From contig MKJX01000179.1 in the NCBI GenBank assembly GCA_001942415.1, positions 1-64,000 of the forward strand: a DNA stretch of 64,000 nucleotides, read 5' to 3'. Source of the stretch: Pseudonocardia sp. CNS-139. GTDB taxonomy: Bacteria; Actinomycetota; Actinomycetes; Mycobacteriales; Pseudonocardiaceae. The translations under genes were made by a program, and so were the position numbers. Positions 9,078 to 36,547 of the stretch are shown one piece after another (positions within the stretch are counted from its first letter, which is position 1; each line of letters starts with the position of its first letter). The notes under the pieces are model-generated. The model ran no database searches. It saw nothing but the letters and a program-made list of their open reading frames with translations, and was not told where the DNA came from.

Positions 9078-9169
9078 GGAGGTGTGTGGGCGCCTGGTGG
9101 CCCCCGCGGTCTTCAACACCGACGTGGCCGAGCACCTCGTCAGGCGGGTTCGATTCCCGTCCGCCTCCG
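9078..9169 (+). tRNA. selC: tRNA-Sec (anticodon TCA)
   Basis: The 92-base segment has a long acceptor stem (GGAGGTG paired with CGCCTCC), a D-arm GGGC/GCCC, a seven-base anticodon loop CTTCAAC with anticodon TCA, an extra arm (CGAG-CAC-CTCG) and a T-arm with TTCGATT. These are the hallmarks of selenocysteine tRNA. No 3' CCA is encoded. The extra arm and the lower anticodon stem pair less well than usual, which may reflect base errors. It lies 4.6-9 kb from selD, selA and selB, whose products synthesise and deliver Sec-tRNA. Confidence 0.85.
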
Positions 9170-9275
9170 CTCCGTGTCCCCCGCTGACCCGTTCGGCGGC
9201 TCGCTCCCGTCCGATCAGGCGAGCCCCGGCCTGTCGGCACCCCCGGGTTGCCGGGCGGGGTGCCATGGTGGGCCG

Positions 9276-15766: not shown

Positions 15767-17142
15767 GTGAGCGTTGTCGACCCGCGGCGCCGGGTGCCCC
15801 GCACGGACGCCGTGCTCGCCGAGCCGCGGGTCGCGGCCGCCGCACGCCGGCTCGGCCGCGGGATCGTCAAGTCCGCGGTCGCGACCGCGCAGCAGCGGGC
15901 CCGCAGCGGTGACGTGCCGCCGGACCACGGTTCGGTCGTCGACGCCGCGCTCGCCGCGCTGCCGGCCACCGCCACCGGCCTGCGGCCCGTGCTGAACGCC
16001 ACCGGCGTCCTGCTGCACACCAACCTCGGCCGCGCCGCCCTCTCCGACGCCGCCCGCGCCGCGCTCGACGTCGCCGCCGGCACCTGCGACGTCGAGCTGG
16101 ACCTCGGCACCGGCGGGCGCGGTCCGCGCGGCGCCGGGGCGCTCGACGCGCTGCTGTCCGCGGTGCCCGGGGCGGCCGCCGCGCACGTCGTCAACAACGG
16201 GCCGCCGCGCTCGCCATGGTCGCCGCCGCGCTGGCGCCGGGCCGGGAGATCGTCGTGTCCCGCGGGGAGCTCGTCGAGATCGGCGACGGCTTCCGCATCC
16301 CCGAGCTGCTCACGGCCGCGGGTGCGCGGCTGCGCGAGGTCGGCACGACCAACCGCACGAGCCCGGCCGACTACGCCGCCGCGATCGGCGAGCACACCGC
16401 GCTCCTGCTCAAGGTGCACCCGTCGAACTTCGTGGTCAGCGGGTTCACCCGGGCCGCCGGGATCCGCGAGCTGGCCGGGCTGGGCGTGCCGGTGGTCGCC
16501 GACATCGGCTCCGGGCTGCTCGCCCCGCACCCGCTGCTGCCCGGCGAGCCGGACGCCGCCACCGCGCTCGCCGAGGGCGCCGCGCTCGTCACGGCGTCGG
16601 GCGACAAGCTGCTCGGCGGCCCGCAGGCCGGGCTGCTGCTGGGCGGCCCGGGCGCGGGCGCCGATCTGGTGCGGCGCATCCGGCGGCACCCGCTCGCGCG
16701 CGCCGTGCGCGCCGACAAGCTGACGCTCGCCGCGCTGGAGGCGACGCTCCGCGGCCCGCTGCCACCGGTGCGCGCGGCGCTGGCGGCCGACCGCGACGAG
16801 CTGACGGCCCGCGCCGAACGGCTCGCCGGCGCGCTCGCCGCGGCCGGGGTGGACGCCGCGGCCGTGCCGTCCACGGCGGCCGTCGGAGGCGGCGGCGCGC
16901 CCGGCGTCACCCTGCCCAGCGCCGCCGTCGCGCTCCCCGAGCGGTACGCGGCCGCGCTGCGCGCCGGGGACCCGGCCGTGCTCGGGCACGTCGAGCGCGG
17001 CCGCTGCCTGCTCGACCTGCGCGCCTTGCCCCCGTCCGCCGACGAGCACTGCGCACGGCCGTGCTCTCAGCCCGCGACTCGCGTACATCCAGGGCGCGAC
17101 TCGCGGACGGGGAAGCCGGATCCCCCGCGAGTCGCGGGCTGA
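15767..17142 (+). CDS. selA: L-seryl-tRNA(Sec) selenium transferase
   Basis: SelA is the PLP enzyme that converts Ser-tRNA(Sec) to Sec-tRNA(Sec) with selenophosphate. Visible blocks are RPVLNATGVLLHTNLGRA, TNRTSPADYAAAI, HPSNFVVSGF and the PLP lysine in TASGDKLLGGPQAG. A missing G near 16202 shifts the frame at VVNNG/AAALAMVAA, and a second break is likely near 17048. As a result the last codons run into palindrome copy B, so the true C-terminus is uncertain (stop at 17142 or 17162). selB follows within 25 bases, and tRNA-Sec and selD are nearby. Confidence 0.9.
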
Positions 17143-23690: not shown

Positions 23691-25108
23691 CTAGCCGCCG
23701 ATCCGCAGGCCGAAGACCTGCAGGAGCGTGTAGACGCCCAGCAGCACGATCGCCACGCTGCTCACCACGAGGAGGGTCGCGAACCCGCGGCCGCCGTGCA
23801 GGCGCGGGTCGGTCTCGGTGCGCCGCAGGTACCAGACGGCCACCACCGCGGCCACCAGGAAGATCCCGGTGGCGATCCCGCCGATCTGCACCATGATCAC
23901 CGGCGACTGGATCGTCAGGAAGCAGACGGCCCACAGGACCGGCAGCACCACCGTGAAGACGCGGATCCAGCGCAGCCGGGCCACCGGGTCCTGCCAGTCG
24001 AGCACGCCGAACGTCGCGAGCAGGTTCGTGTACATGCGCGACCAGCTCGGGATCGCCGCCCACATCGTGGAACCGAGCACCGCGATCGCCCCGAGCAGGA
24101 ACAGCACGCTCGCCCACGGGCCGAGCGTGTCGGTGTAGATCCGGGACAGCGTGGTGATCATCCCGTTGCCCTCGGGCGCGAGCCCCTGCGGGTTCAGCAC
24201 GGCCGCGCCCATCAGGTAGAACGCCAGCGTGCCGAACGTGTAGACCACCCACGAGACGAACGCGTCCTTGTACATCACGCGGATCCAGCCGTTGGCCCGG
24301 CGGGCCCACGCCTCGCTGCCGTCGTCGGGGCCGGTCCAGCGCGCGTAGCCCTTCTCCAGGCACCAGTACGTGTAGAACGTGATCTCGTCGGCGCCCACAC
24401 CGGTGATCCCGAACATCGCCACCGCCGCGCGATCGCCCCACCGGGAGTGAGGAACGTGAGCCCGCTGAGCACGTCGCCGGGCCCGTACGCGAACGGCGTC
24501 AGCGGCAGGCCGAGCGCGATGAGCACCGTCACGGCCGTGAAGACGACCACGAGCGCCGCGGCGCCGCGTTCGATCAGCGAGTAGCGGTTGGAGTAGAGCA
24601 GCGCGATGCTCGCGACGGCCAGCACGCACGTCCAGACGGTCAGCGAGACGGGTCCGAGCGGGTCGCCGCCGATCGGCAGCAGAATGCTGAACGCCGCGGC
24701 GGCGCCGCCGATGATGCCGCCGAGCTGCAGGAGCTTGGAGAGGGCGAGCAGCACCCACAGCAGGTTCACCCAGCCGACCCGGCCGATGCGCGGCGGCACC
24801 TTGGCGTAGCCGGTGAGCGCGGGCTGGCCGGTCGCGATCGTCCAGCGGGCCAGCTCGACCTGCACGGCGACCTTCACCAGCGTGCTGACGATCACCAGCC
24901 ACAGCAGCACGAACCCGGCCTCGGCACCGAGCGCCGTGGTGGCGATCAGCTCCCCGGACCCCACGATCGACGCGCTGAGGATCAGGCCGGGGCCCAGGTA
25001 GCGGAAGCTCGCCCGCCAGCCGACGGGCGGCTCCTTGATGCCCTCCGGTGTGAGCGCGTACGGGTCGGTGGTCTCGGCTCCGGTCGCGGTCCCGGTGGGT
25101 TCGGGCAT
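23691..25108 (-). CDS. Nramp-related membrane transporter
   Basis: About 11 hydrophobic segments and an Nramp-like fold are visible: GPGLILSASIVGSGELIATT at the first helix and VGADEITFYTYW in the middle. The family's DPGN metal-binding motif is replaced by VGSGE, so classical Mn/Fe transport is doubtful. This divergent branch could move another cation or solute, perhaps the acid catabolised by the neighbouring locus. A frame break lies near 24437. The ATG at 25108 has GGAG eight bases upstream. It is divergent from the 2-hydroxyacid dehydrogenase gene, with which it shares a 130-base control region. Confidence 0.75.
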
Positions 25109-25241: not shown

Positions 25242-26179
25242 ATGACACGTCCGACCGTCCTGATGACGGTGCCGATGCACCCCTCCGTGGTCGAGGGGTG
25301 CGAGGAACGCTTCGACCTGCTGCGGCTCTGGGAGGCCGCCGACGCGACGCGCTGCTCGCCGAACGCGGACCGGACGTGCTCGGCGTCGCGACGGTCGGCG
25401 CGCCGATCGGGCCGGCCCTGCTCGACCGGCTGCCCGGCGTGCAGATCGTCGCGAGCTTCGGCGTCGGCTACGACACGATCGACGTGGCCGCGGCGGCCGC
25501 GCGCGGGGTGGTCGTCACGAACACGCCCGGCGTGCTCGACGACGAGGTCGCCGACACCGCGATGGCACTGCTCCTCATGGCCGTGCGCGAGCTGGGCCGC
25601 GCCGAGCGGTTCCTGCGGGCCGGGAGGTGGGTGCAGGAGTCGTTCCCGCTGTCGCCCTCGACGCTGGCCGGGCGCCGGCTCGGGGTGCTCGGGCTCGGCC
25701 GCATCGGCGAGGCCGTGGCGCGGCGGGCCGAGGCGTTCGGGATGACGGTCGGCTACCACAACCGCAACCGGAAGGACGTGCCCTACCGGTACCACCCGAC
25801 GCTGCTCGGCATGGCCGCCGACGTCGACACGCTCGTGGTCCTGGTGCCCGGCGGCGCCGCCACCCACCACCTCGTCGACGCCGCGGTGCTCGCCGCCCTC
25901 GGCCCCGACGGCGTGCTCGTCAACGTCGGGCGGGGTTCGGTGGTGGATGAGTCCGCGCTGGTCACGGCCCTGCGGGAGGGCACGATCCTGGCGGCGGGCC
26001 TCGACGTCTACGAGGACGAGCCGCACGTCGCGGCGGAGCTGCTGGAGCTGGACAACGCCGTGCTGCTGCCGCACGTCGGCTCCGGGTCCGAGCCCACCCG
26101 CCGCGCGATGGGCCGGCTCGTCGTGGACAACCTGGAGAGCTGGTTCGAGAAGGGCAGGGCCCTCACGCCCGTCCCCTGA
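25242..26179 (+). CDS. D-2-hydroxyacid dehydrogenase (glyoxylate/2-ketogluconate reductase type)
   Basis: The enzyme should interconvert a 2-hydroxy and a 2-keto acid with NAD(P)H. The nucleotide-binding GLGRIGEAVARRAEAFGM is followed by the catalytic arginine in NVGRGSVVDE, the glutamate in DVYEDEP and the histidine in LLPHVGSGS. A missing C near 25346 breaks the N-terminal domain; corrected it reads EAADRDALLAERGPDVLGV. Total about 312 residues is typical. It lies beside the transporter and convergent with the dehydratase gene, separated by palindrome copy C, and probably belongs to the sugar-acid pathway. Confidence 0.87.
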
Positions 26180-26277: not shown

Positions 26278-28066
26278 TCAGTGGTTGTCGCGGGGCAGGC
26301 CCTTGGTCTGCGTGATCCGCTGGTAGGCCACCGCCGGGCGCAGGACCATGCCCTCGCTGAGCTGGTCGACCATCGACCGCTGGATCTCCTGCCACGGCGT
26401 CTGGGACGGCGGGACGGGGTAGCCGCCCGCCTCGTCCAGTGCGCGGCGGCGGGCGGTCAGCTCCTCGTCCGGGACGAGCATGTCGGCGGTGCCCGCGTTC
26501 AGGTCGATGCGGACGCGGTCGCCGGTGCGCAGCAGGGCGAGCCCGCCGCCGGCCGCGGCCTCGGGCGAGGCGTTGAGGATCGACGGCGACCCGGACGTGC
26601 CGGACTGGCGCCCGTCCCCGACGCACGGCAGCGCGTGCACGCCCTGCTTGATCAGCTCGGCGGGCGGCTGCATGTTCACGACCTCGGCCGCGCCCGGGTA
26701 GCCCAGCGGCCCGGTGCCGCGCATGAACAGCAGGGTGTGCTCGTCGATCTTCAGGTCGGGGTCGTCGATGCGGTGGTGGTAGTCCTCCGGCCCGTCGAAG
26801 ACGACCGCACGCCCCTCCAGGACGTTCGGGTGGTCGGGGTCGGAGAGGTACCGCGCGCGGAAGTCCGGCGAGATCACGCTGGTCTTCATGATCGCGCAGT
26901 CGAAGAGGTTCCCGCTGAGCACGAGGAACCCGGCGTCGTCGACGAGCGCGCGGTCGAACGTGCGGATGACGTCGCGGTCGGTGGCGGCGGCGGCGCGGCA
27001 GTTGTCGCCGATCGTCCGCCCGTTGACGGTCAGCGCGTCCTCGCGGACGAGCCCGTGCGCCATGAGCTCGTGGACGACGGCCGGCACACCCCCGGCCCGG
27101 TGGAACTCCTCGCCGAGGTACTTGCCGGCCGGCTGCAGGTCGACGATCAGCGGCACGCCGAGCCCGAGCCGCTGCCACTCGGTCATCGGCAGGTCGACGC
27201 CCATGTGCCGGGCTATCGCGGTGACGTGGATGGGCGCGTTGGTGGAGCCGCCGATCGCGGAGTTGACGACGATCGCGTTCTCGAACGCGCGCGGGTCATG
27301 ACGTCGGAGGGCTTGAGGTCCTCGTGCACCATCTCGACGATCCGCCGGCCCGTCAGGTAGGCCATGCGGGCCCGGTCGCGGTGCACGGCGGGGATCGCGG
27401 AGCAGCCGGGCAGGCTCATGCCCAGCGACTCGGCCAGCGCGTTCATGGTGGACGCGGTGCCCATCGTGTTGCAGTGCCCGGGCGACGGCGCGGACGCCGC
27501 GACCATCTCGACGAACTCCGCGTCGTCGATCTCGCCGGCGGCGAGCATCTCGCGGGCCTTCCAGATGATCGTGCCGGAGCCGGTGCGCTCGCCGCGGTAC
27601 CAGCCGTTGAGCATCGGCCCGCCGGACAGCACGATCGCCGGGATGTTCACGGTCGCGGCGGCCATGAGGCAGGCGGGTGTGGTCTTGTCGCAGCCGGTGG
27701 TCAGCACGACGCCGTCGAACGGGTAGCCGTAGAGCGACTCGACCAGGCCCAGGTACGCGAGGTTCCGGTCGAGCGCGGCGGTCGGCCGCTTGCCGGTCTC
27801 CTGGATCGGGTGCACCGGGAACTCGACGGCGATGGCCCCCATCTCCCGGATGCCCTCGCGCACGCGGTCGGCGAGCACCAGGTGGTGGCGGTTGCAGGGG
27901 GCCAGGTCGGAGCCGGTCTGCGCGATGCCGATCACCGGCTTGCCGGACTGCAGCTCCTCCCTGGTCAGGCCCCAGTTCATGTACCGCTCGATGTAGAGGC
28001 GGTCATCCCCGGGTTGTCGGGGTTGTCGAACCAGGCCTGGCTGCGCAGGGGTCGGGGGGACGTCAT
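26278..28066 (-). CDS. IlvD/Edd-family sugar-acid dehydratase
   Basis: This iron-sulfur dehydratase has cysteines in [19 protein letters not shown] and [19 protein letters not shown] and the C-terminal blocks [16 protein letters not shown] and [16 protein letters not shown]. The size (about 596 residues) and sequence fit aldonate dehydratases, such as arabinonate or xylonate dehydratase, better than dihydroxy-acid dehydratase of branched-chain synthesis. It would yield a 2-keto-3-deoxy acid. Missing bases near 28003 and 27289 split it into three frames. The ATG (28066) overlaps the stop of the SDR gene upstream in the operon. Confidence 0.85.
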
Positions 28067-28832
28067 AGGGGTGAGCTGGACCGCCGTTGATCTCGATGAC
28101 CTGACCGGTGACGTAGCCGCTCATGGCGGGCGACGCCAGGTAGAGCACGGTGCCGACGCACTCGTCCGGGGTGCCGACGCGGCCCATCGGCACACCGGAC
28201 AGCATCGCCGCCATCTGCGCGTCGGTGGTGTGCCGCTCGTGGAACGGGGTGGTGATGATGCCGGGCGCGATCGCGTTGACCCGGATCCCGTCGCGGGCCA
28301 GCTCCTTCGCCAGGCCCCGGGTGAAGGTACTCACGGCGGCCTTGGCCGTCGCGTAGGCGACCGAGCCGCCCGCGCCGCCGGTGCGCGCCGCCACCGACGT
28401 GACGTTGACGATCGCGCCCGCCGCCTGCCGGCGCATCACCGGGACCGCCTGGCGGCAGGTGGCGAACACCGAGGTCATGTTGAGGTCCATCACGCGCGCG
28501 AAGTGCTCGTCGCTCATGTCGGCGATCTGCACGCGTCCCTGCAGGTCACCGGCGTTGTTGACCAGCACGTCCAGCTTGCCGTGCGCCGCCACCACACCGT
28601 CGACGAGCGCGGCGGGCGCGCCCGGGGCGGTGAGGTCCGCGCCCACCGTGGACGCCGCGCCGCCGGCCTCCTGGATCGCCCCGGCGACCTTCTCGGCGCC
28701 CTCGCGGTTGTGCCCGTAGGAGACGACGACGTGCGCGCCGAGCTTGCCGAAGCCCTCGGCGACGGCCGCACCGATGCCGCTCCCCGCGCCCGTGACCAGG
28801 ACGACCTGGCCGGTGAAGTCGAGCATGCCCAT
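28063..28832 (-). CDS. Short-chain dehydrogenase/reductase (SDR)
   Basis: A classical SDR of about 255 residues: cofactor motif [23 protein letters not shown], the catalytic serine in [12 protein letters not shown] and the YATAK lysine/tyrosine pair. It should oxidise or reduce a hydroxyl on a sugar acid or keto acid in this operon. One G appears to be missing near 28088; with it restored the end reads NGGSSPL followed by a stop that overlaps the dehydratase ATG. As given, the frame runs on into the dehydratase, a false fusion. It starts one base from the stop of the UxaA-like gene. Confidence 0.85.
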
Positions 28833-30354
28833 CACATCACGGCTCCCAGCTGCCACGGAACGAACTCCTCCTGCCCGAAACCGAGCTCCTCGCTGAGCGT
28901 CCTCCGCCCGGACGCGGTCTCCAGGACCAGCCGGAAGAGCCGCTCCCCCACGGAGTCCACGGACTCCCCGCGGGAGAGCACCACCCCGCAGTCGATGTCC
29001 ATGTCGCCGGCCATGTGCTCGTACATCGGGGTGTTGGTGGCGAGCTTGAGGCTGGGCGTCGGCTTGCAGCCGAGCACCGAGCCGCGGCCCGTCGTGAAGC
29101 ACATGACGGTCGCCCCGCCCGCGACGATCCCCGTGACGGACACCGGGTCGTAGCCCGGCGTGTCCATGAACGTGAACCCCTTCGCGGTGACGCGCTCGGC
29201 GTACTCGTAGACGCCGGTGAGGTTCGTGGTGCCGCCCTTCGCGACGGCGCCGAGCGACTTCTCCAGGATCGTGGTGAGCCCGCCTGCCTTGTTGCCCGGC
29301 GACGGGTTGTTGTCCATCGACCCGTTGTTGATCTCAGTGTAGTGCTCCCACCAGCGGATCCGCTCGACCAGCTTGTCCGCGACGGCCGGGTCGACGCGCG
29401 GCGGGTGAGCAGGTGCTCGGCCCCGTAGATCTCCGGGGTCTCGCCGAGCACCGCGGTGCCGCCGTGGCGCACGAGGAGGTCGACGGCCGCGCCGAGCGCC
29501 GGGTTGGCCGTGATGCCGGAGTAGGCGTCCGAGCCGCCGCAGTTGAGCCCGAGCACCAGCTCGCTCGCCGGCACGGTCTCCCGCTTCACGTCGTTCGCCT
29601 GCGGCAGCATGGCCTGCAGCGCCGCGACGCCCGCACGCACGGTGGCGACCGTGCCGCCCTGCTCCTGGATCGTCATCGTGGCGACCGGGCGGGACGGGTC
29701 GAGCCGCCAGCCCTCGGACACGCCCTTGATCTGGTTGACCTCGCAGCCCAGCCCGAGCAGCAGGAACCCGGCGAAGTTGGGGTGCTCGGCGTACCCGGCC
29801 AGCGTGCGGCGCAGCACCGCGATGCCCTCGCCGTCGTCGGCCATCCCGCAGCCGGTGCCGTGGGTCAGCGCCACCACGCCGTCGACGTTCGGGAACGCGT
29901 CGAGCAGGCCGGGCCTGCGGAACTGGTCGGCGATCATCTTCGCGGCCGTGGCCGAGCAGTTCACCGACGTGAGGATGCCCAGGTAGTTGCGGGTGGCGAC
30001 GCGCCCGTCCGCGCGCACGATGCCCTGGAACGTCGCCCGCTCCGCCTCCGGCACGTACCGCGTCTCGGTGACGTCGGCGCCCACCGCGTAGTCCCGTTCG
30101 AACGCCTGGAACGCCGTGTTGTGCGTGTGCACGTGGTCGCCGGGGGCGATCGGGCCGGTCGCGAACCCGATGATCTGGTTGTACTTGCGCACCGGCTCGC
30201 CCGCGGCGATGTCCGCGACGGCGATCTTGTGCCCGCTCGGCACGTCCGCGCGCAGCGTCACCCCCGCCACCTCGCTGCCGGCGGCCAGCGCCTGGGCCGC
30301 CACCACGACGTTGTCGGCCGCGTGCAGCCGGACGGTGACATCGCTGCTGGTCAC
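28832..30354 (-). CDS. UxaA-family altronate/galactarate-type dehydratase
   Basis: The N-terminal SAF domain ([20 protein letters not shown], then GDHVHTHN) is fused to the large UxaA catalytic domain with [35 protein letters not shown] and [15 protein letters not shown]. Family members dehydrate aldonic or aldaric acids to 2-keto-3-deoxy products with a metal cofactor. A missing G near 29405 breaks the frame before [19 protein letters not shown]. About 507 residues is normal. The GTG start overlaps the LarA-like gene's stop. A second dehydratase of another family occurs in the same operon, so two different acids or steps are likely. Confidence 0.85.
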
Positions 30355-31656
30355 GGCCACGGCAGCAGCCGCCCGTCGGCGTCGAACGCCATCGACGCGG
30401 CCTCGCCGGTGACCTCCAGCGTGGGGTCCGCGTCGACGGCGGCCCGCAGCGACTCGGAGACGAGCAGGTGCTCCAGGTTCAGCGTGTTGGGCATCCGCAC
30501 CAGCGTGACGGCGGCCGGGTCGGCCTGCCCGCAGGTCAGCACGGCCGCGGCGATCGCGTCCCGGTCGGTGGGCATCGCCATCGGGATCTGCGCACGCTGC
30601 GGCCCGCCCAGCCCGGACGTCATCGCGTTGATGTAGAGGCTGCGCAGGTCGATCCGCTCCAGCACGCGGAACGGGACGTAGTCGGCCAGCCCCACGCCGA
30701 CCGCGTTGCCGTGCGAGGCGTCGCTGATGTCGAGCACCGCGATGTTGCGGATGCGCGGGCGGTCGAACTCGGCGCTGCCGCGGATCATCATCCGGCCGAT
30801 GACGTTGGTGTCCATGCCGGCGCCGGAGTAGTTCTTGCCCAGCTCGTCCACCACGGCCACGTCGACGTCGTCGAACGGGAGCCGGGCCATGCGCCGCTTG
30901 GGTCGGCGAGCAGCGCGGTCTCCACGGGCCCGCCGACGTCCTCGCCGCGACGAGCTCGATGCGGGCCGCGCGGTCGTAGGCGTTCTCGACGATCGCGAGG
31001 CCGCCGAGGATCTTGCCGGTCTCCACGATCCGCTTCGCGACGGCCGGCACCCAGACGGCCAGGTTGGCCGGGCCGTACCGGTGGATGCCCTCGGCGCCGC
31101 GGCGCTTGCCCAGCCCGATCGCGATGATCTTGGCGAGGCCGCTCTCGATGTCGCCGCGGAAGTCGGTGTGCGCCTTGACCCGGTTGATCGCGAGCACGCC
31201 GTCGGCCTTGGCCGCGTTGGCGTCCAGGTGCACCGCCGGGCCGTCGGGCAGCCGGTCGATCTCGACCGTCTCCATCGTCGCCCTGATGGGCATCCCGACG
31301 CTCTGCCCGGTGATGCCCAGGTCGGCGAGCAGCTGCACCTGGCCCTCGGCCGTCGCGCCGCCGTGCGAGCCCATGGCCGGCACGACGAACGGCTCGGCGC
31401 CGGCCGCGCGCAGCCACTCCCCCGCCGCGCGCACGACGGCCGGCTTGTCGTGGATGCCGCGGCTGCCCGCCGTGATCGCCACGGTCATGCCCGGGCGGAT
31501 GCGGGCGCGCAGCGGCTCCAGCGCGGCGGCCGTGGTCGCGGCGACGTCCTCGACCTTCGCGGGGTCGAAGCGCTGCCGGACGGGCACCAGCCGCGGGAAC
31601 GGCACGTCGAACGTCAGCTCGCGGACGGCCTCGAACGGGCCGAGGTGCGCGCTCAC
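30351..31656 (-). CDS. LarA-like nickel-dependent racemase/epimerase (DUF2088)
   Basis: LarA enzymes use the nickel-pincer nucleotide to racemise or epimerise 2-hydroxy acids by hydride transfer. This protein of about 434 residues has the N-terminal DUF2088 domain with [19 protein letters not shown] and the block [21 protein letters not shown]. The latter parallels the LarA segment carrying the cofactor-binding lysine and a histidine. A break near 30900 shifts the C-terminal domain ([17 protein letters not shown]). The GTG start overlaps the pdxA2 stop. It sits among sugar-acid genes and a few kilobases from larC, larB and larE, so a sugar acid is a better substrate guess than lactate. Confidence 0.75.
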
Positions 31657-32664
31657 GACGCGGCTCCCGACGCGGCCCGGGCGGCGAGCCGGGCGGCGGC
31701 CATCGACGCGCCGACCGTGACCGCCTCGACCAGCGAGTCGGCGCTCGCCTTGCCGGTGCCGGCGATGTCGAACGCCGTGCCGTGGTCGACGCTCGTGCGC
31801 ACGATCGGCAGCCCGATCGTCGCGTTCACGCCGGTCTCGAACCCGAGCACCTTCACCGCGATGTGGCCCTGGTCGTGGAACATCGCGATCGTCACGTCGA
31901 AGTCGCCGCGACCGCGCGGCCGAAGAGCGTGTCGGCCGGCCACGGGCCGCTGGCGTCGATGCCCTCGGCCTTGGCCCGCTCGATCGCCGGGATGATCGTC
32001 TGCTGCTCCTCGTCGCCGAAGAGACCGCCCTCGCCGGCATGCGGGTTCAGCCCCGCGACCGCGACGGACGGGCGCTCCATGCCCATGTCGCGCAGCGCCT
32101 TGTGGGCGAGCCGGATCGTGGTGAGCACCCGCTCGGTGGTGACCTTCTCCAGCATCTTGCGGATGCCGACGTGCGTGGTCACGTGCACCACCCGCAGCTT
32201 GTGGGCGGTGAGCATCATCGCGAAGTCCGGGGTGCCGGTGAGCTCGGCGAGGATCTCCGTGTGGCCCGGGTAGGGGTGCCCGGCCAGCGCGATGGCCTCC
32301 TTGTTGAGCGGCGCGGTGACGATGCCGTCGATCTCGCCGGCCAGCGCCAGCTCGACCGCCTTCGCCACCCCCTCGAACGCGATCTGGCCGGCCTCGGCCG
32401 AGAGCGTCCCGACCGGGACCCGCACGTCGGAGGCCACGTTGACCACGTCGAGCGTGCCGGGCGCGAACCGGGCCTCGCCGGGCGCCGCCACGACGTTCAG
32501 CTCGGGCGCGTCGGGCACGACCTCGGCCGCCGCGCGCAGCGCCGTCACGCTGCCGATCGCGACGAGCCGGGCCACTCCGACGCGCGGGTCGCTGCCGCCT
32601 TGAGGACGACCTCGGGCCCGATCCCGGCCGGGTCGCCGACCGTCAGGCCGAGTACGGGGTTCAT
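31653..32664 (-). CDS. PdxA2-type 4-phospho-hydroxyacid dehydrogenase
   Basis: The protein belongs to the 4-hydroxythreonine-4-phosphate dehydrogenase family: GDPAGIGPE, the metal-ligand histidines in [19 protein letters not shown] and [11 protein letters not shown]. Paired with a DUF1537 kinase, such enzymes are PdxA2, which oxidise 4-phospho-threonate or 4-phospho-erythronate, with decarboxylation giving dihydroxyacetone phosphate. Missing G residues near 32583 and 31918 split the gene; total length is about 337 residues. ATGA overlap with the kinase gene upstream and GTGA overlap with the LarA-like gene downstream place all three in one transcript. Confidence 0.85.
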
Positions 32665-33779
32665 GCGTTCGCCTCCAGTGCCGCTTCTGCCGCATCGATC
32701 GCTTCCGCGGCGCGCAGCAGTGCGTCGCGCGCCCCGAAGCCGCCGGACTTCGTCACGACGGGAACCCGCAGGTCACCCGCCACCAGCTCGCCGATCGGCA
32801 GCCCCTCGGCCACCTCGCCGAGCACGCGCATCTCGGTCGCGCCCAGCGCGGTCGCCACCGCGAGCGCGGTGGTGCCGCCGGTGAGCACCAGACCGGCCCC
32901 GGGCGCCGCGGCGAGCACGGCGACCGCCGTGCGCGCGAGCCCGGCGGCGAGCGCGGCCGCGGCCGGGCCCTCCGGCTCGACCTCACCGTCCGGCTCGCAG
33001 GCCAGCACCACCCGCCGGCCGGCCGCCAGCGCGGCGGCCGCCACCGCGACGGCCGCCGGCCCGGCCAGCACGACCTGGGCGCCCGCCGACTCCAGCTCGG
33101 CCACCTGGGCCCGGGTGACCGGGTGCGGGGTGCCGGCGACGACCAGCACGGCCGTCGCGGGGGCCGGGACCGCGGCGCCGCAGGGCTGCGGCACCAGCAC
33201 GTCGGCCAGCGCGCGGGACAGGCCGCCGGAGCCGACCGCGACCCGGCCGGCGCCGACCAGCGCGTGCGCGACCGCGACGAGGTCCTCGTGCGTCTCGGCG
33301 TCGACGACCTCGACACCGGCCGGAAAGTGGGCCGCGACCTGCGGTTCCGTCTGCCGCCCGTGCACGGACAGGACACCGTCGCGGACCGTGCGGCCCTGGC
33401 CCGGGAACGCGGGGGTGGCCACCGCGCCGGGCGCGGGCCACGCGGCGAGCGCGCCTTCCACGTCGGCGCGGACCTGCCCGCGGAGCACCGAGTCGATCTT
33501 GACGAAGAGCCGCTGCGCGCCGCGGTCGCGCATCCGCCCGACGGCCGCCCGCGTGCGTGCGGCGGCCTCGGCGGCCGGGCGCGAGCGGTTGTCGGTGAGC
33601 ACGGCGAGCACCTCGGCATCCGGGGCCGCCTCCGTCAGTGCGACCGCGACCGTCAGGCCGCGGACGGCGAAGGGAGCGGCGGCGTCGGCCGCGCCCGTCA
33701 GGTCGTCGGCGACCACGCCCAGGCGAACGGCACCCGCGGTGGCCACGGCGGCGACGACCTCCTCAGACGAGCTGCGCAC
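32661..33779 (-). CDS. Four-carbon acid-sugar kinase family protein (DUF1537)
   Basis: These kinases phosphorylate C4 sugar acids such as threonate or erythronate at O-4. The N-terminal substrate-binding domain starts RLGVVADDLTGAADAAAPF and has FVKIDSVLRGQVRADVEGAL. The C-terminal nucleotide-binding domain has LVLTGGTTALAVATALG and VTKSGGFGARDALLRA. The frame is unbroken and 372 residues is somewhat short for the family. It is the first gene of the catabolic transcript and lies just downstream of a candidate GntR operator. The partner pdxA2 overlaps its stop codon. Confidence 0.87.
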   Translation of the reverse strand: MRSSSEEVVAAVATAGAVRLGVVADDLTGAADAAAPFAVRGLTVAVALTEAAPDAEVLAVLTDNRSRPAAEAAARTRAAVGRMRDRGAQRLFVKIDSVLRGQVRADVEGALAAWPAPGAVATPAFPGQGRTVRDGVLSVHGRQTEPQVAAHFPAGVEVVDAETHEDLVAVAHALVGAGRVAVGSGGLSRALADVLVPQPCGAAVPAPATAVLVVAGTPHPVTRAQVAELESAGAQVVLAGPAAVAVAAAALAAGRRVVLACEPDGEVEPEGPAAAALAAGLARTAVAVLAAAPGAGLVLTGGTTALAVATALGATEMRVLGEVAEGLPIGELVAGDLRVPVVTKSGGFGARDALLRAAEAIDAAEAALEANA

Positions 33780-33820
33780 CCGACCCTAGGTGCGGGCACA
33801 CCCGCCGTCAACGACTCTCC

Positions 33821-33837
33821 TCTGATGTCAGACCAGA
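33821..33837. promoter_or_regulatory. Palindromic candidate operator of the sugar-acid operon
   Basis: TCTGATGTCAGACCAGA is a near-palindrome (TCTGRT.T on both strands) located about 45 bases upstream of the kinase start. Its size and TG-T...A-CA layout fit FadR-type GntR operators. A related TGATGTC-AGA core recurs at 25148-25158, between the divergent transporter and dehydrogenase genes. Binding by the GntR protein encoded at 22965 is inferred. Confidence 0.45.
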
Positions 33838-33839
33838 GA

Positions 33840-33905
33840 CCCCGTTGCAGCAAAGCCACCCTCATGCCGGGTCGCTGCGTGAGGGTGGCTTTGCTGCAAG
33901 CGGGG
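33840..33905 (-). terminator. Strong hairpin at the 3' end of larC
   Basis: Arms of about 27 bases (33840-33866 and 33878-33905) pair over a perfect 20-base core (TTGCAGCAAAGCC... with ...GGCTTTGCTGCAA), leaving a loop of about 11 bases. The element includes the larC stop codon. It should terminate the larEBC transcript before the kinase operon and so separate cofactor-synthesis and catabolic transcripts. Confidence 0.7.
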
Positions 33906-35016
33906 CGGCCGCCAGCGCCTGCCGGGCGACCTCACGGAGCGGGAGGTCCAGGGCCGCGGCGGCGACCTCGACGTCGTCGTGCTCGGGCTTCGCACCCCAC
34001 GGACCGTGCTTGACCCGCACCGCGTGCCCGCCGACGTCCACGGTGCTGGTGTGCCGCGGCAGCGCCGTGCGGTCCACGGTGGTGCGGCGCAGCCCGAGGC
34101 TGCCGGTCTCGGCCAGCACGATCCGCTCGCAGTCCGCCGCCCGCTCGGACGCCGCGAGCACGTGCACGGTGTGCGCCGGCCGGCCCTTCTTCATGACGAT
34201 CGGCGTGAGCCACGCGTCGGCGGCGCCGGCCGCGAGCAGCCGGGCGACCAGGTGGCCGAGCACCTCGCCGGTGACGTCGTCGACGTTCGTCTCCAGCAGC
34301 GTCATCGGGGCGCTGCGCCCGGCGGGCTCGCCGAGCAGCGCCTGCAGCACGTTGGCCCGGCCGGCCGGGTCGCGCCCGCCCGCCCCGTAGCCGACGCCGC
34401 GCAGCGCCATGGCCGGCACCGGCCCGAACCGCGCGTCCATCGCGACGAGCAGCGCCGCGCCCGTCGGCGTCACGGTCTCGCCGACGCCGGCCCCCGTGAC
34501 CGGCGCGTGGGCCGCGGCCAGCAGCGCGGCCGTGGCCGGCGCGGGCACCGGCAGCACGCCGTGGCGGGTCTCGACCGTGCCCGAACCGAGCGCGATCGGC
34601 CCGCAGTGCACCTCGGTCACGCCGAGCAGGTCCAGCGCCGCGGCCACCCCGACGGTGTCCACCACGGTGTCCAGCCCGCCGATCTCGTGCAGGTGCACCT
34701 CGTCGACGGGGACGCCGTGGATGCCGGCCTCGACCTCGGCGATGGCCCGCACGGCGCGCGCCGCGACGCCGACGTCCCCGACCCGCGCGAGCAGCTCGGC
34801 GGCGTGGCGCTCGGTCGCCGTGTCGGTCACGGTGACAACCGCCCGGGTGGCGCCGATCCCTGCGCGCGTCACCCGCTCGGCGGACAGCTGCCAGCCGTCG
34901 AGGCCCGTGCGCGCGACCGCAGCGCGCACGCCGTCGAGCGGGGCGCCGAGGTCGAGCAGCGCGCCCAGCAGCATGTCGCCCGAAGCCCCGCTGACGGGGT
35001 TGAACCAGACGATCAC
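33862..35016 (-). CDS. larC: Nickel insertion protein for nickel-pincer nucleotide
   Basis: LarC inserts nickel into the bis-thiocarboxylated pyridinium nucleotide, using CTP, to complete the LarA cofactor. The N-terminus WFNPVSGASGDMLLGALLD, the block VHLHEIGGLDTVVDTVGVAA and the C-terminal ETNVDDVTGEVLGHL are family hallmarks (DUF111). The gene is one uninterrupted frame of 384 residues; in some lactobacilli larC is split and needs programmed frameshifting. The GTG start overlaps the larB stop (GTGA). The stop codon lies inside a strong hairpin. Confidence 0.92.
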   Translation of the reverse strand: MIVWFNPVSGASGDMLLGALLDLGAPLDGVRAAVARTGLDGWQLSAERVTRAGIGATRAVVTVTDTATERHAAELLARVGDVGVAARAVRAIAEVEAGIHGVPVDEVHLHEIGGLDTVVDTVGVAAALDLLGVTEVHCGPIALGSGTVETRHGVLPVPAPATAALLAAAHAPVTGAGVGETVTPTGAALLVAMDARFGPVPAMALRGVGYGAGGRDPAGRANVLQALLGEPAGRSAPMTLLETNVDDVTGEVLGHLVARLLAAGAADAWLTPIVMKKGRPAHTVHVLAASERAADCERIVLAETGSLGLRRTTVDRTALPRHTSTVDVGGHAVRVKHGPWGAKPEHDDVEVAAAALDLPLREVARQALAAAPLAAKPPSRSDPA

Positions 35017-35696
35017 CTCGGCGCCGGCCGGGTGGCCATGCGGTGCGCGGCCATCGCGGCGCCGAACCCCGAGTCGATGTTGACGACCACCACGCCCGCC
35101 GCGCACGAGGTCAGCATCGCGAGCAGCGGCGTCACCCCCTCCAGCGCCGCCCCGTACCCGACGGACGTCGGCACCGCGATCACCGGGCACCCCACCAGCC
35201 CGCCGACCACACTCGGCAGCGCGCCCTCCATGCCGGCCACGCAGATCACGGCGTCGGCGGCGCGCAGCTCGTCGGTCTCGGCGAGCAGCCGGTGCAGCCC
35301 GGCCACGCCCACGTCGCGCAGCTCGTGCACGTCGAGCCCGAGCGCCCGCGCGACGGCGGCGGCCTCGGCCGCGACCGGCCAGTCCGACGTGCCGGCCGAC
35401 GCGACCACCACCCGGAACGCCCGCCCCGACGCCGGGCGCCAGACCAGCAGCCGGGCCGTCCCGTCGTACGCGGAGCCGGGGACCTCGGCCGCCACGGCCG
35501 CCGCCACCGCCGGCTCCACCCGCGTGACCAGCACCGGGCCCTCGTTCGCCGCGAGCAGCGACCGCACCACACCGACCACGTGCCCGACCGTCTTGCCCGG
35601 CCCGTAGACCACCTCGGGCAGCCCCATCCGGGCCTCCCGGTCGGTGTCCGGCCGGGCGTACCCGAGATCCTCGAACCCCGTCATGTCCGCCGTCAT
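35013..35696 (-). CDS. larB: Pyridinium-3,5-biscarboxylic acid mononucleotide synthase
   Basis: LarB carboxylates and hydrolyses nicotinic acid adenine dinucleotide, the first step of nickel-pincer cofactor synthesis. The C-terminal PurE-like domain is clear: VVASAGTSDWPVAAEAAAVA, CVAGMEGALPSVVGGLVGCP and VGYGAALEGVTPLLAML. The short N-terminal segment GLPEVVYGPGKTVGHVVGVV is also typical. Length 227 residues, no frame break. The ATG overlaps the larE stop and the end overlaps the larC start, so the three cofactor genes form one tight transcript. Confidence 0.92.
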   Translation of the reverse strand: MTADMTGFEDLGYARPDTDREARMGLPEVVYGPGKTVGHVVGVVRSLLAANEGPVLVTRVEPAVAAAVAAEVPGSAYDGTARLLVWRPASGRAFRVVVASAGTSDWPVAAEAAAVARALGLDVHELRDVGVAGLHRLLAETDELRAADAVICVAGMEGALPSVVGGLVGCPVIAVPTSVGYGAALEGVTPLLAMLTSCAAGVVVVNIDSGFGAAMAAHRMATRPAPR

Positions 35697-36547
35697 GCCC
35701 GGCCGGGCATCCCCAGCAGCACGTTCATCCGGCCGCTGGCGAAGCCCTGCATGTCGAGCGCGCAGAAGTCGAACCCGGCGGCGCGCACGCCCGCGTCCAG
35801 CTCGGCGCGCAGCCCGGCTGCGCGCGCCACGTCCGCGGCGGGCACCTCGACCCGCGCGACGGACCCGCCGCCGTGCGTCCGCACCCGGCAGACCGCGAAG
35901 CCCAGCGCCCGCACGGCCTCCTCGGCGCGTTCCACCTTGCGCAGCACCTCGGCCGTCACCGGGTCGCCGTACGCCACCCGGGACGCGAGGCAGGCCGCGG
36001 CCGGCTTCTCCGCCGTGACCAGGCCCAGCTCCGCGCTCACCGCCCGCACCTCGGCCTTGCCGAACCCGGCGTCCAGCAGCGGGGCGATCGCGCCACGCTC
36101 GGCCGCGGCGCGCTGGCCCGGCCGGTGGTCGCCCAGGTCGTCGAGGTTGGTGCCCAGCGCGATCCGCGCCCCGGAGATCGCCGCGAGCGGCGCCAGCGCG
36201 TCGAAGAGCGCCGACTTGCAGTGGTAGCAGCGGTCCCCGCCGTTCGCGACGTACTCCGGCCGGTCCAGCTCGTCGGTCGCCACCTCGACGTGCGCGATCC
36301 CGCGGGCCGCCGTGAACGCCCGCGCGGCCGCCCGCTCGCTGCGCGGCAGGCTCGCCGACACCGCCGTCACCGCGACGGCCCGCTCACCCAGCACCTCGGC
36401 GGCCACGGCCGCGACGAGCGCCGAGTCCACCCCTCCGGAGTACGCGACGAGCAGCCGCGACTCCGTGCGCAGCCGCGCGCGCAGGGCGTCGAGCAGGTCG
36501 GAGACCGGTGGGCCCGGCCGTTCGGTGTCCACCACACCAGTGCTCAC
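35693..36547 (-). CDS. larE: ATP-dependent sacrificial sulfur transferase
   Basis: LarE adenylates the biscarboxylated nucleotide and transfers sulfur to it. The PP-loop SGGVDS (residues 37-42), a CYHCK motif (C107 and C110) and the block PAAACLASR (C186) are visible. C186 aligns with the sacrificial cysteine of known LarE proteins, which is converted to dehydroalanine. The extra CxxC could instead hold an iron-sulfur cluster, as in catalytic homologues; the sequence alone cannot decide. It is the first gene of larE-larB-larC and is read from a GTG at 36547 (284 residues). The rsbV-like gene is divergent. Confidence 0.92.
   Translation of the reverse strand: MSTGVVDTERPGPPVSDLLDALRARLRTESRLLVAYSGGVDSALVAAVAAEVLGERAVAVTAVSASLPRSERAAARAFTAARGIAHVEVATDELDRPEYVANGGDRCYHCKSALFDALAPLAAISGARIALGTNLDDLGDHRPGQRAAAERGAIAPLLDAGFGKAEVRAVSAELGLVTAEKPAAACLASRVAYGDPVTAEVLRKVERAEEAVRALGFAVCRVRTHGGGSVARVEVPAADVARAAGLRAELDAGVRAAGFDFCALDMQGFASGRMNVLLGMPGRA

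Follow-up and report, generated by a model that had tools for sequence, protein, structure and literature searches.

Why would the genes that build a nickel-pincer nucleotide (NPN) cofactor stand in an operon for the breakdown of sugar acids? The question is raised by contig MKJX01000179.1 of Pseudonocardia sp. CNS-139, whose first 64,000 nucleotides (the window) carry nine genes on the minus strand, in the order larE, larB, larC, DUF1537 kinase, pdxA2, LarA-like gene, uxaA, SDR and ilvD from position 36547 down to 26278. The explanation favored here is that this operon joins the making of NPN to an aldonate C2 epimerase that would feed both the kinase/PdxA2 pair and the dehydratases, and we give it, as a whole, a probability of about two in three. 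LarB, LarE and LarC would build the cofactor for the LarA homologue, a member of group 22 of the NPN isomerases, which would invert C2 of aldonic acids while a hydride passes to the cofactor and back. In the clade of the window this enzyme would most likely interconvert D-erythronate and D-threonate, and the kinase and PdxA2 would then convert D-threonate to dihydroxyacetone phosphate and CO2; the C2 flip of longer aldonates would let the UxaA-type and IlvD-type dehydratases accept isomers that they otherwise refuse. The explanation builds on the predicted fold, the residues, the gene order and the co-occurrence with LarB, from which the loading with NPN, the reaction and every substrate are inferred. 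The features of the locus are the following:

35693..36547, minus strand: larE, ATP-dependent sulfur transferase of NPN cofactor synthesis; TIGR00268, 298.7 bits (cut-off 150); open frame
35013..35696, minus strand: larB, NPN synthesis; NF033503, 262.6 bits, above the curated cut-off; open frame
33862..35016, minus strand: larC, nickel insertion protein; PF01969, 383.5 bits; NCBIfam LarC1 (161.6 bits) and LarC2 (131.2 bits), above the curated cut-offs; open frame
33845..33899, minus strand: perfect inverted repeat of 20 bp that overlaps with the stop of larC, a palindrome dispersed genome-wide (from folding and a genome-wide count of its core)
32661..33779, minus strand: DUF1537 four-carbon acid sugar kinase; PF07005 (SBD_N), 99.4 bits, and PF17042 (NBD_C), 63.4 bits; open frame
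31653..32664, minus strand: pdxA2, D-threonate-4-phosphate dehydrogenase-like; two frame changes; NF002891, 233.5 bits (middle piece); three pieces 81-94% alike to the orthologue
30351..31656, minus strand: LarA-like NPN isomerase, group 22; two frame changes; NF052515 in two pieces, 291.9 bits (6.8e-87) and 180.6 bits (4.5e-53)
28832..30354, minus strand: UxaA/GarD-type dehydratase with SAF and GD_AH domains; one frame change (domain matches, orthologue comparison)
28065..28832, minus strand: SDR oxidoreductase; frame reads on beyond the expected stop near 28065 (domain match, orthologue comparison)
26278..28066, minus strand: IlvD/Edd-type dehydratase, galactonate/xylonate dehydratase-like; two frame changes; the N-terminal piece by itself matches PRK13017 with 462.5 bits
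26225..26255, minus strand: intrinsic-terminator-like hairpin and T run after ilvD, likely the operon end; folding energy of the wider stretch -54.6 kcal/mol (z -10.0)

The stop codon of one gene and the start codon of the next overlap by 4 bases in larE/larB (35693-35696), larB/larC (35013-35016), pdxA2/LarA-like and LarA-like/uxaA, and by 1 base in uxaA/SDR. An earlier reading made from the sequence only had described nine genes on one strand and the overlaps that chain larE, larB and larC; the profile and domain matches bear out the former and the positions above the latter. Since the genes overlap and a terminator-like hairpin follows ilvD, the boundaries given by that reading are likely those of the operon.

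The LarA-like enzyme of group 22

The family model matched by the LarA-like protein is NF052515 ('NPN_iso_grp_22'), the NCBIfam nickel pincer cofactor-dependent isomerase of group 22, which has a cut-off of 400 bits and states no substrate; to judge by its name, the numbering would be that of group 22 in PMC7583248. The cut-off refers to whole proteins, against which the window protein, split as it is, scores 291.9 and 180.6 bits, and intact orthologues, present in 11 of 59 relatives, reach 480-496 bits. The predicted model has the two-domain LarA fold. The NPN-binding Arg and Lys, the Ni-ligand His and the two catalytic His (R/H/H/K/H) were located by profile alignment, and this set is invariant in all 99 aligned rows, the window pieces included, so that the cofactor-binding lysine and histidines, whose absence would have counted against the sequence-only reading, are all present. 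The assignment to the LarA superfamily, with conserved catalytic and cofactor residues, is thus supported at the level of sequence.

The same data bear on whether the reaction is an epimerization at all. An NPN enzyme with another outcome, such as isomerization by hydride transfer or oxidation of a sugar acid in place of C2 inversion, might be imagined, as identity between the model and the superposed LarA structures is no more than 11-16% and a PDB sequence search with the group-22 profile returned three chance matches and no solved relative. Moreover, PMC12611868 describes LarA homologues in which the second catalytic His is replaced by Asn and for which other chemistry is suspected. Nevertheless, group 22 retains both catalytic His in every aligned row, as known epimerases do, which rules out membership in that single-histidine group and makes a different outcome improbable.

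A C2 epimerase of aldonates also has to be told apart from the characterized members of the superfamily. With LarA and malate racemase the enzyme shares the fold and the R/H/H/K/H set, but it differs from them in its specificity loop, in its borderline match to Lar_N and in its neighbors, which in the window are sugar-acid enzymes. In the window clade, 15 rows out of 15 have T-D as the loop after the second catalytic His, whereas, according to PMC11770544, this loop is an aromatic F-F in canonical lactate racemases and E-V in GntE; the window clade has neither. The distance to GntE (Thermotoga maritima, Corynebacterium glutamicum) is also apparent from the structural alignment, which gives 11% identity. 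Against Pfam Lar_N (cut-off 23.3 bits) the window piece scores 19.5 bits and two orthologues 24.5 and 21.9 bits, and this model is indecisive on its own, given that one orthologue passes. Taken together, the family model, the loop residues and the sugar-acid neighbors disfavor a lactate racemase, and the typical grouping with lactate racemases, which had been considered the counter-case, was not found.

Genomic contexts and candidate substrates

D-threonate is degraded to dihydroxyacetone phosphate and CO2 by way of a DUF1537 kinase and PdxA2, a pathway reportedly established by Zhang and colleagues in 2016, and D-erythronate is the C2 epimer of D-threonate. The same two enzyme families stand in tandem in the window, where the additional epimerase would bring in D-erythronate without a dehydrogenase or an isomerase. 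An intact PdxA2 orthologue passes the general pdxA model (376 bits, cut-off 290.35) and has 2hi1 and 6e85 as its closest solved chains, the latter named D-threonate 4-phosphate dehydrogenase. UxaA-type and IlvD-type dehydratases take 2,3-threo substrates. The intact UxaA orthologue scores 390.7 bits against the galactarate dehydratase GarD (TIGR03248), far below the cut-off of 730.85, and its closest solved structure is the galactarate dehydratase 6u7l (333 bits). The intact IlvD orthologue exceeds the PRK13017 cut-off of 684 with 1011.8 bits, and its closest solved relatives are a galactonate dehydratase (980 bits across 575 residues), followed by 5oyn (802 bits), which we take to act on xylonate.

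The neighborhoods were compared over 98 group-22 loci: 11 came from relatives, 80 were the best-scoring among at least 591 matches to named genomes and 7 were taken from 113 plasmid records, with one duplicate, L025 and L056 being one organism. Within 8 kb, DUF1537 and PdxA are found together in 24 of the 98 loci, UxaA in 21 and gluconate-type genes (FGGY kinase, Gnd or UxaC) in 20. The gluconate context overlaps with neither the tetronate nor the UxaA one (0 of 98 each), and the nine loci with both tetronate and UxaA genes all belong to the window clade; on a Rubrobacter plasmid of the tetronate set, a gene of the UxaA family lies just beyond 8 kb. On the tree, the tetronate label alone has to change 8 times, and well-supported branches force no fewer than 4 of these changes; the gene orders also differ. 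No DUF1537, PdxA, UxaA or IlvD gene lies within 8 kb at 20 canonical-LarA loci (of 22 in the same genomes; five are cut short). Many branches of the nickel-pincer family are without a known substrate, and this comparison ties group 22 to three sugar-acid contexts.

In the third context, that of Bacilli, the group-22 gene is accompanied by a glucuronate isomerase (annotated in L139), an SDR, an FGGY kinase and a 6-phosphogluconate dehydrogenase. A representative of the SDR passes the D-mannonate oxidoreductase model (289.0 bits, cut-off 281), and the best match of the FGGY kinase is gluconokinase, at 500.1 bits and below the cut-off of 648.55. The 21 kb of L139 have neither a mannonate dehydratase nor a gluconokinase among their annotations, and no search for mannonate dehydratase was made in the Bacilli genomes. 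To judge from these sequences, the neighbors can together lead to D-mannonate on one side and consume D-gluconate on the other, which makes C2 inversion the likely missing step. This reaction is known for GntE (PMC7583248, PMC11770544). Furthermore, 4-deoxy-threonate and 4-deoxy-erythronate are inverted at C2 by certain Lar enzymes.

The window clade comprises 18 rows, with L015 and Kribbella, of which 17 have UxaA and 15 IlvD; contigs end near the gene in L024 and L015, IlvD is missing from the 10.6 kb of L055, and in L057 it is encoded on the opposite strand. The order of the Lar and sugar-acid genes is conserved in congeners, and the cluster is therefore not due to chance. An alternative interpretation is that the enzyme is a hexonate/pentonate 2-epimerase serving the two dehydratases only, the kinase and PdxA2 being a tetronate module in the same operon but without relation to it. 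This would be consistent with UxaA and IlvD remaining beside the gene in three Kribbella loci and where the kinase/pdxA2 pair is absent (L016, L017, L020), with the galactonate dehydratase and 5oyn as closest solved relatives of IlvD, and with the hexonate chemistry indicated by the Bacilli set. Yet 15 of the 98 loci have DUF1537 and PdxA beside group 22 but neither UxaA nor IlvD within 8 kb (L024 among them is cut by a contig end), and they do so in several orders. Moreover, at residues 165, 284, 287, 324 and 355 the window clade resembles the tetronate set and not the gluconate-type one. In unassigned loci, too, the states at 165, 284 and 287 are frequent (26 and 27 of 41), so that they oppose a gluconate type more than they prove a tetronate type. 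On balance, an enzyme confined to the longer aldonates seems unlikely.

Several observations weigh against the favored explanation, that of an aldonate C2 epimerase feeding both branches. The kinase of the window has the D-threonate kinase model NF047819 as its best NCBIfam match, at 145.9 bits for a cut-off of 450, and an intact orthologue does no better (138.3 bits, and 61.2 against 3-oxo-tetronate kinase, below both cut-offs). All 21 kinases scanned from the 24 tetronate-context loci (L024, L056 and L113 were left out) match the D-threonate and 3-oxo-tetronate kinase models alike. The intact PdxA2 orthologue stays at 365.7 bits against NF002891, the model of D-threonate 4-phosphate dehydrogenase (cut-off 583), which slightly lowers confidence in the explanation. 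No scored partner is present in 41 of the 98 loci, and one more has IlvD alone; therefore, other functions may exist within group 22. The loci from named genomes are the best-scoring ones, a sample biased to near relatives, and D165 of the tetronate set, which recurs in 26 of 41 unassigned rows, is weakened as a tetronate signature and not diagnostic. L016, L017 and L020 are three congeners that keep larEBC, the LarA-like gene, UxaA, SDR and IlvD but have no DUF1537/pdxA2 pair in the operon; their best other PdxA copy is 51-52% identical and has no kinase beside it except a shadow frame, the DUF1537 profile also catching, at about 90-98 bits, shadow frames that belong to other genes. As these three group, with moderate support, inside tetronate-bearing rows, the absence is read as one loss. 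Finally, the LarA-like gene is broken in the present assembly, and no reported activity for group 22 was found in open-licence PMC.

The claims of the sequence-only reading therefore fare unevenly. Its proposal of C2 epimerization feeding two branches remains the best account of the conserved residues and gene order, although the reaction and the substrates are inferred. The kinase and PdxA2, which it assigned to C4 sugar acids, do occur in tandem and recur beside group-22 genes, but intact orthologues miss the curated D-threonate cut-offs and three congeners do without the pair. A more far-reaching version may be advanced tentatively, as a possibility short of an even chance: group 22 would be a separate nickel-pincer branch for polyhydroxy (aldonic) acids with a hub in Pseudonocardia, where one C2 epimerase would supply 2,3-threo C4, C5 and C6 aldonates to a D-threonate kinase and two dehydratases and open a dehydrogenase-free route for D-erythronate. 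No report of a Lar-family threonate/erythronate 2-epimerase was found in open-licence PMC. Priority for the group-22 context is not claimed; the supplement of PMC7583248 lists neighbors per group and may contain those of group 22. The comparison makes specific reactions directly testable, namely on erythronate/threonate, mannonate/gluconate and pentonates. If the favored explanation is true, the sugar-acid catabolism of Actinomycetota, Bacillota, Rhodobacterales and haloarchaea would gain a step that depends on nickel, and the presence of larEBC in such operons would be accounted for.

Other neighborhoods were seen as well. In Poribacteria (L073, L076, L078 and others) the group-22 genes adjoin a UbiA-type prenyltransferase and a xylose-isomerase-like barrel protein, which fit none of the three sugar-acid sets, and in Bathyarchaeota (L075, L083, L094, L130) they adjoin an iron-type alcohol dehydrogenase and a 2-hydroxyacid dehydrogenase.

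Cofactor supply

Among the 59 relatives (the genome of the strain itself excluded), all 11 with group 22 above the cut-off have LarB above its cut-off, versus 23 of the 48 without group 22 (Fisher p 0.0014, genome kinship ignored). In the phylum (245 genomes), LarB is found in 29 of 29 genomes with group 22 versus 124 of 216 without (p 5e-7, kinship again ignored); the 29 comprise 27 above the cut-off, one at 399.7 bits and one split in two, and 14 genomes with weak matches (18-31 bits) were counted as lacking group 22.

The pathway had been proposed to be dedicated to the LarA-like enzyme, and this part is contradicted. The larB gene of the window is the only one above the cut-off found in its own genome, a second match (32.9 bits) being probably PurE, and a canonical Lar_N protein (185 bits) is encoded on another contig, C218 (L001/L172), with no larEBC within about 8 kb. 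Since this canonical protein stands apart from the one larEBC set found, these genes are not dedicated, with the caution that the assembly covers 78.5% of the genome by completeness; to the extent that such a draft can tell, the operon provides NPN for the whole cell. Relatives encode counterparts of the C218 protein that carry the lactate-racemase loop H-F-F and that mostly stand without cofactor genes close by.

Broken frames, the larC hairpin and flanking genes

The draft assembly amounts to 7.1 Mb in 250 contigs. Alignment to intact orthologues by tblastn reveals seven frame changes in four genes (two in pdxA2, two in the LarA-like gene, one in uxaA and two in ilvD), none of which is a single open frame here, a fact that the sequence-only reading overlooked. 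The number of breaks might suggest a cluster of real pseudogenes that yields no functional enzyme in this strain. Nevertheless, at most 1-2 residues are unaligned at each break, the gene pieces are 76-94% alike to their orthologues and the adjacent Nramp gene is broken in the same manner. In all 11 relatives the LarA-like gene is free of inner stops, as would be predicted from assembly errors in a draft of 250 contigs. The remaining operon genes are open in most relatives, the exceptions being cuts at contig ends (L018, L024) and L020, where ilvD appears likewise split and larC short. Because of this intactness in relatives, the breaks are read as assembly errors, and a decayed cluster is judged highly improbable.

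The hairpin that the sequence-only reading noticed after larC is real and folds strongly (arms of 20 bp at 33845-33864 and 33880-33899, -59 kcal/mol, z -7.8), but it is a REP-like (repetitive extragenic palindrome) dispersed repeat. Its 15-base core has 82 copies in the draft genome (40 forward, 42 reverse; 0 for the reversed control), often paired 30 bp apart, and an 11-base core is present in none of the 11 loci of relatives (L015-L025), which rules out the hairpin as a signal of the operon.

Downstream of the operon, an Nramp-family metal transporter gene with one frame break lies at 23697-25066 (minus strand). A relative of it is found 4.8-8.4 kb from the group-22 gene in L019, L022, L025/L056 and L057, and another annotated Nramp gene is near that of the Rubrobacter plasmid L136; the Nramp label of a gene in L021 was not upheld by blastp. 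That this transporter supplies nickel is a guess. A D-2-hydroxyacid dehydrogenase gene (25298-26179, plus strand) is convergent with ilvD, and the window also contains selenocysteine machinery, namely a tRNA-Sec (9078-9170) and a piece of a SelA gene (16216-17142).

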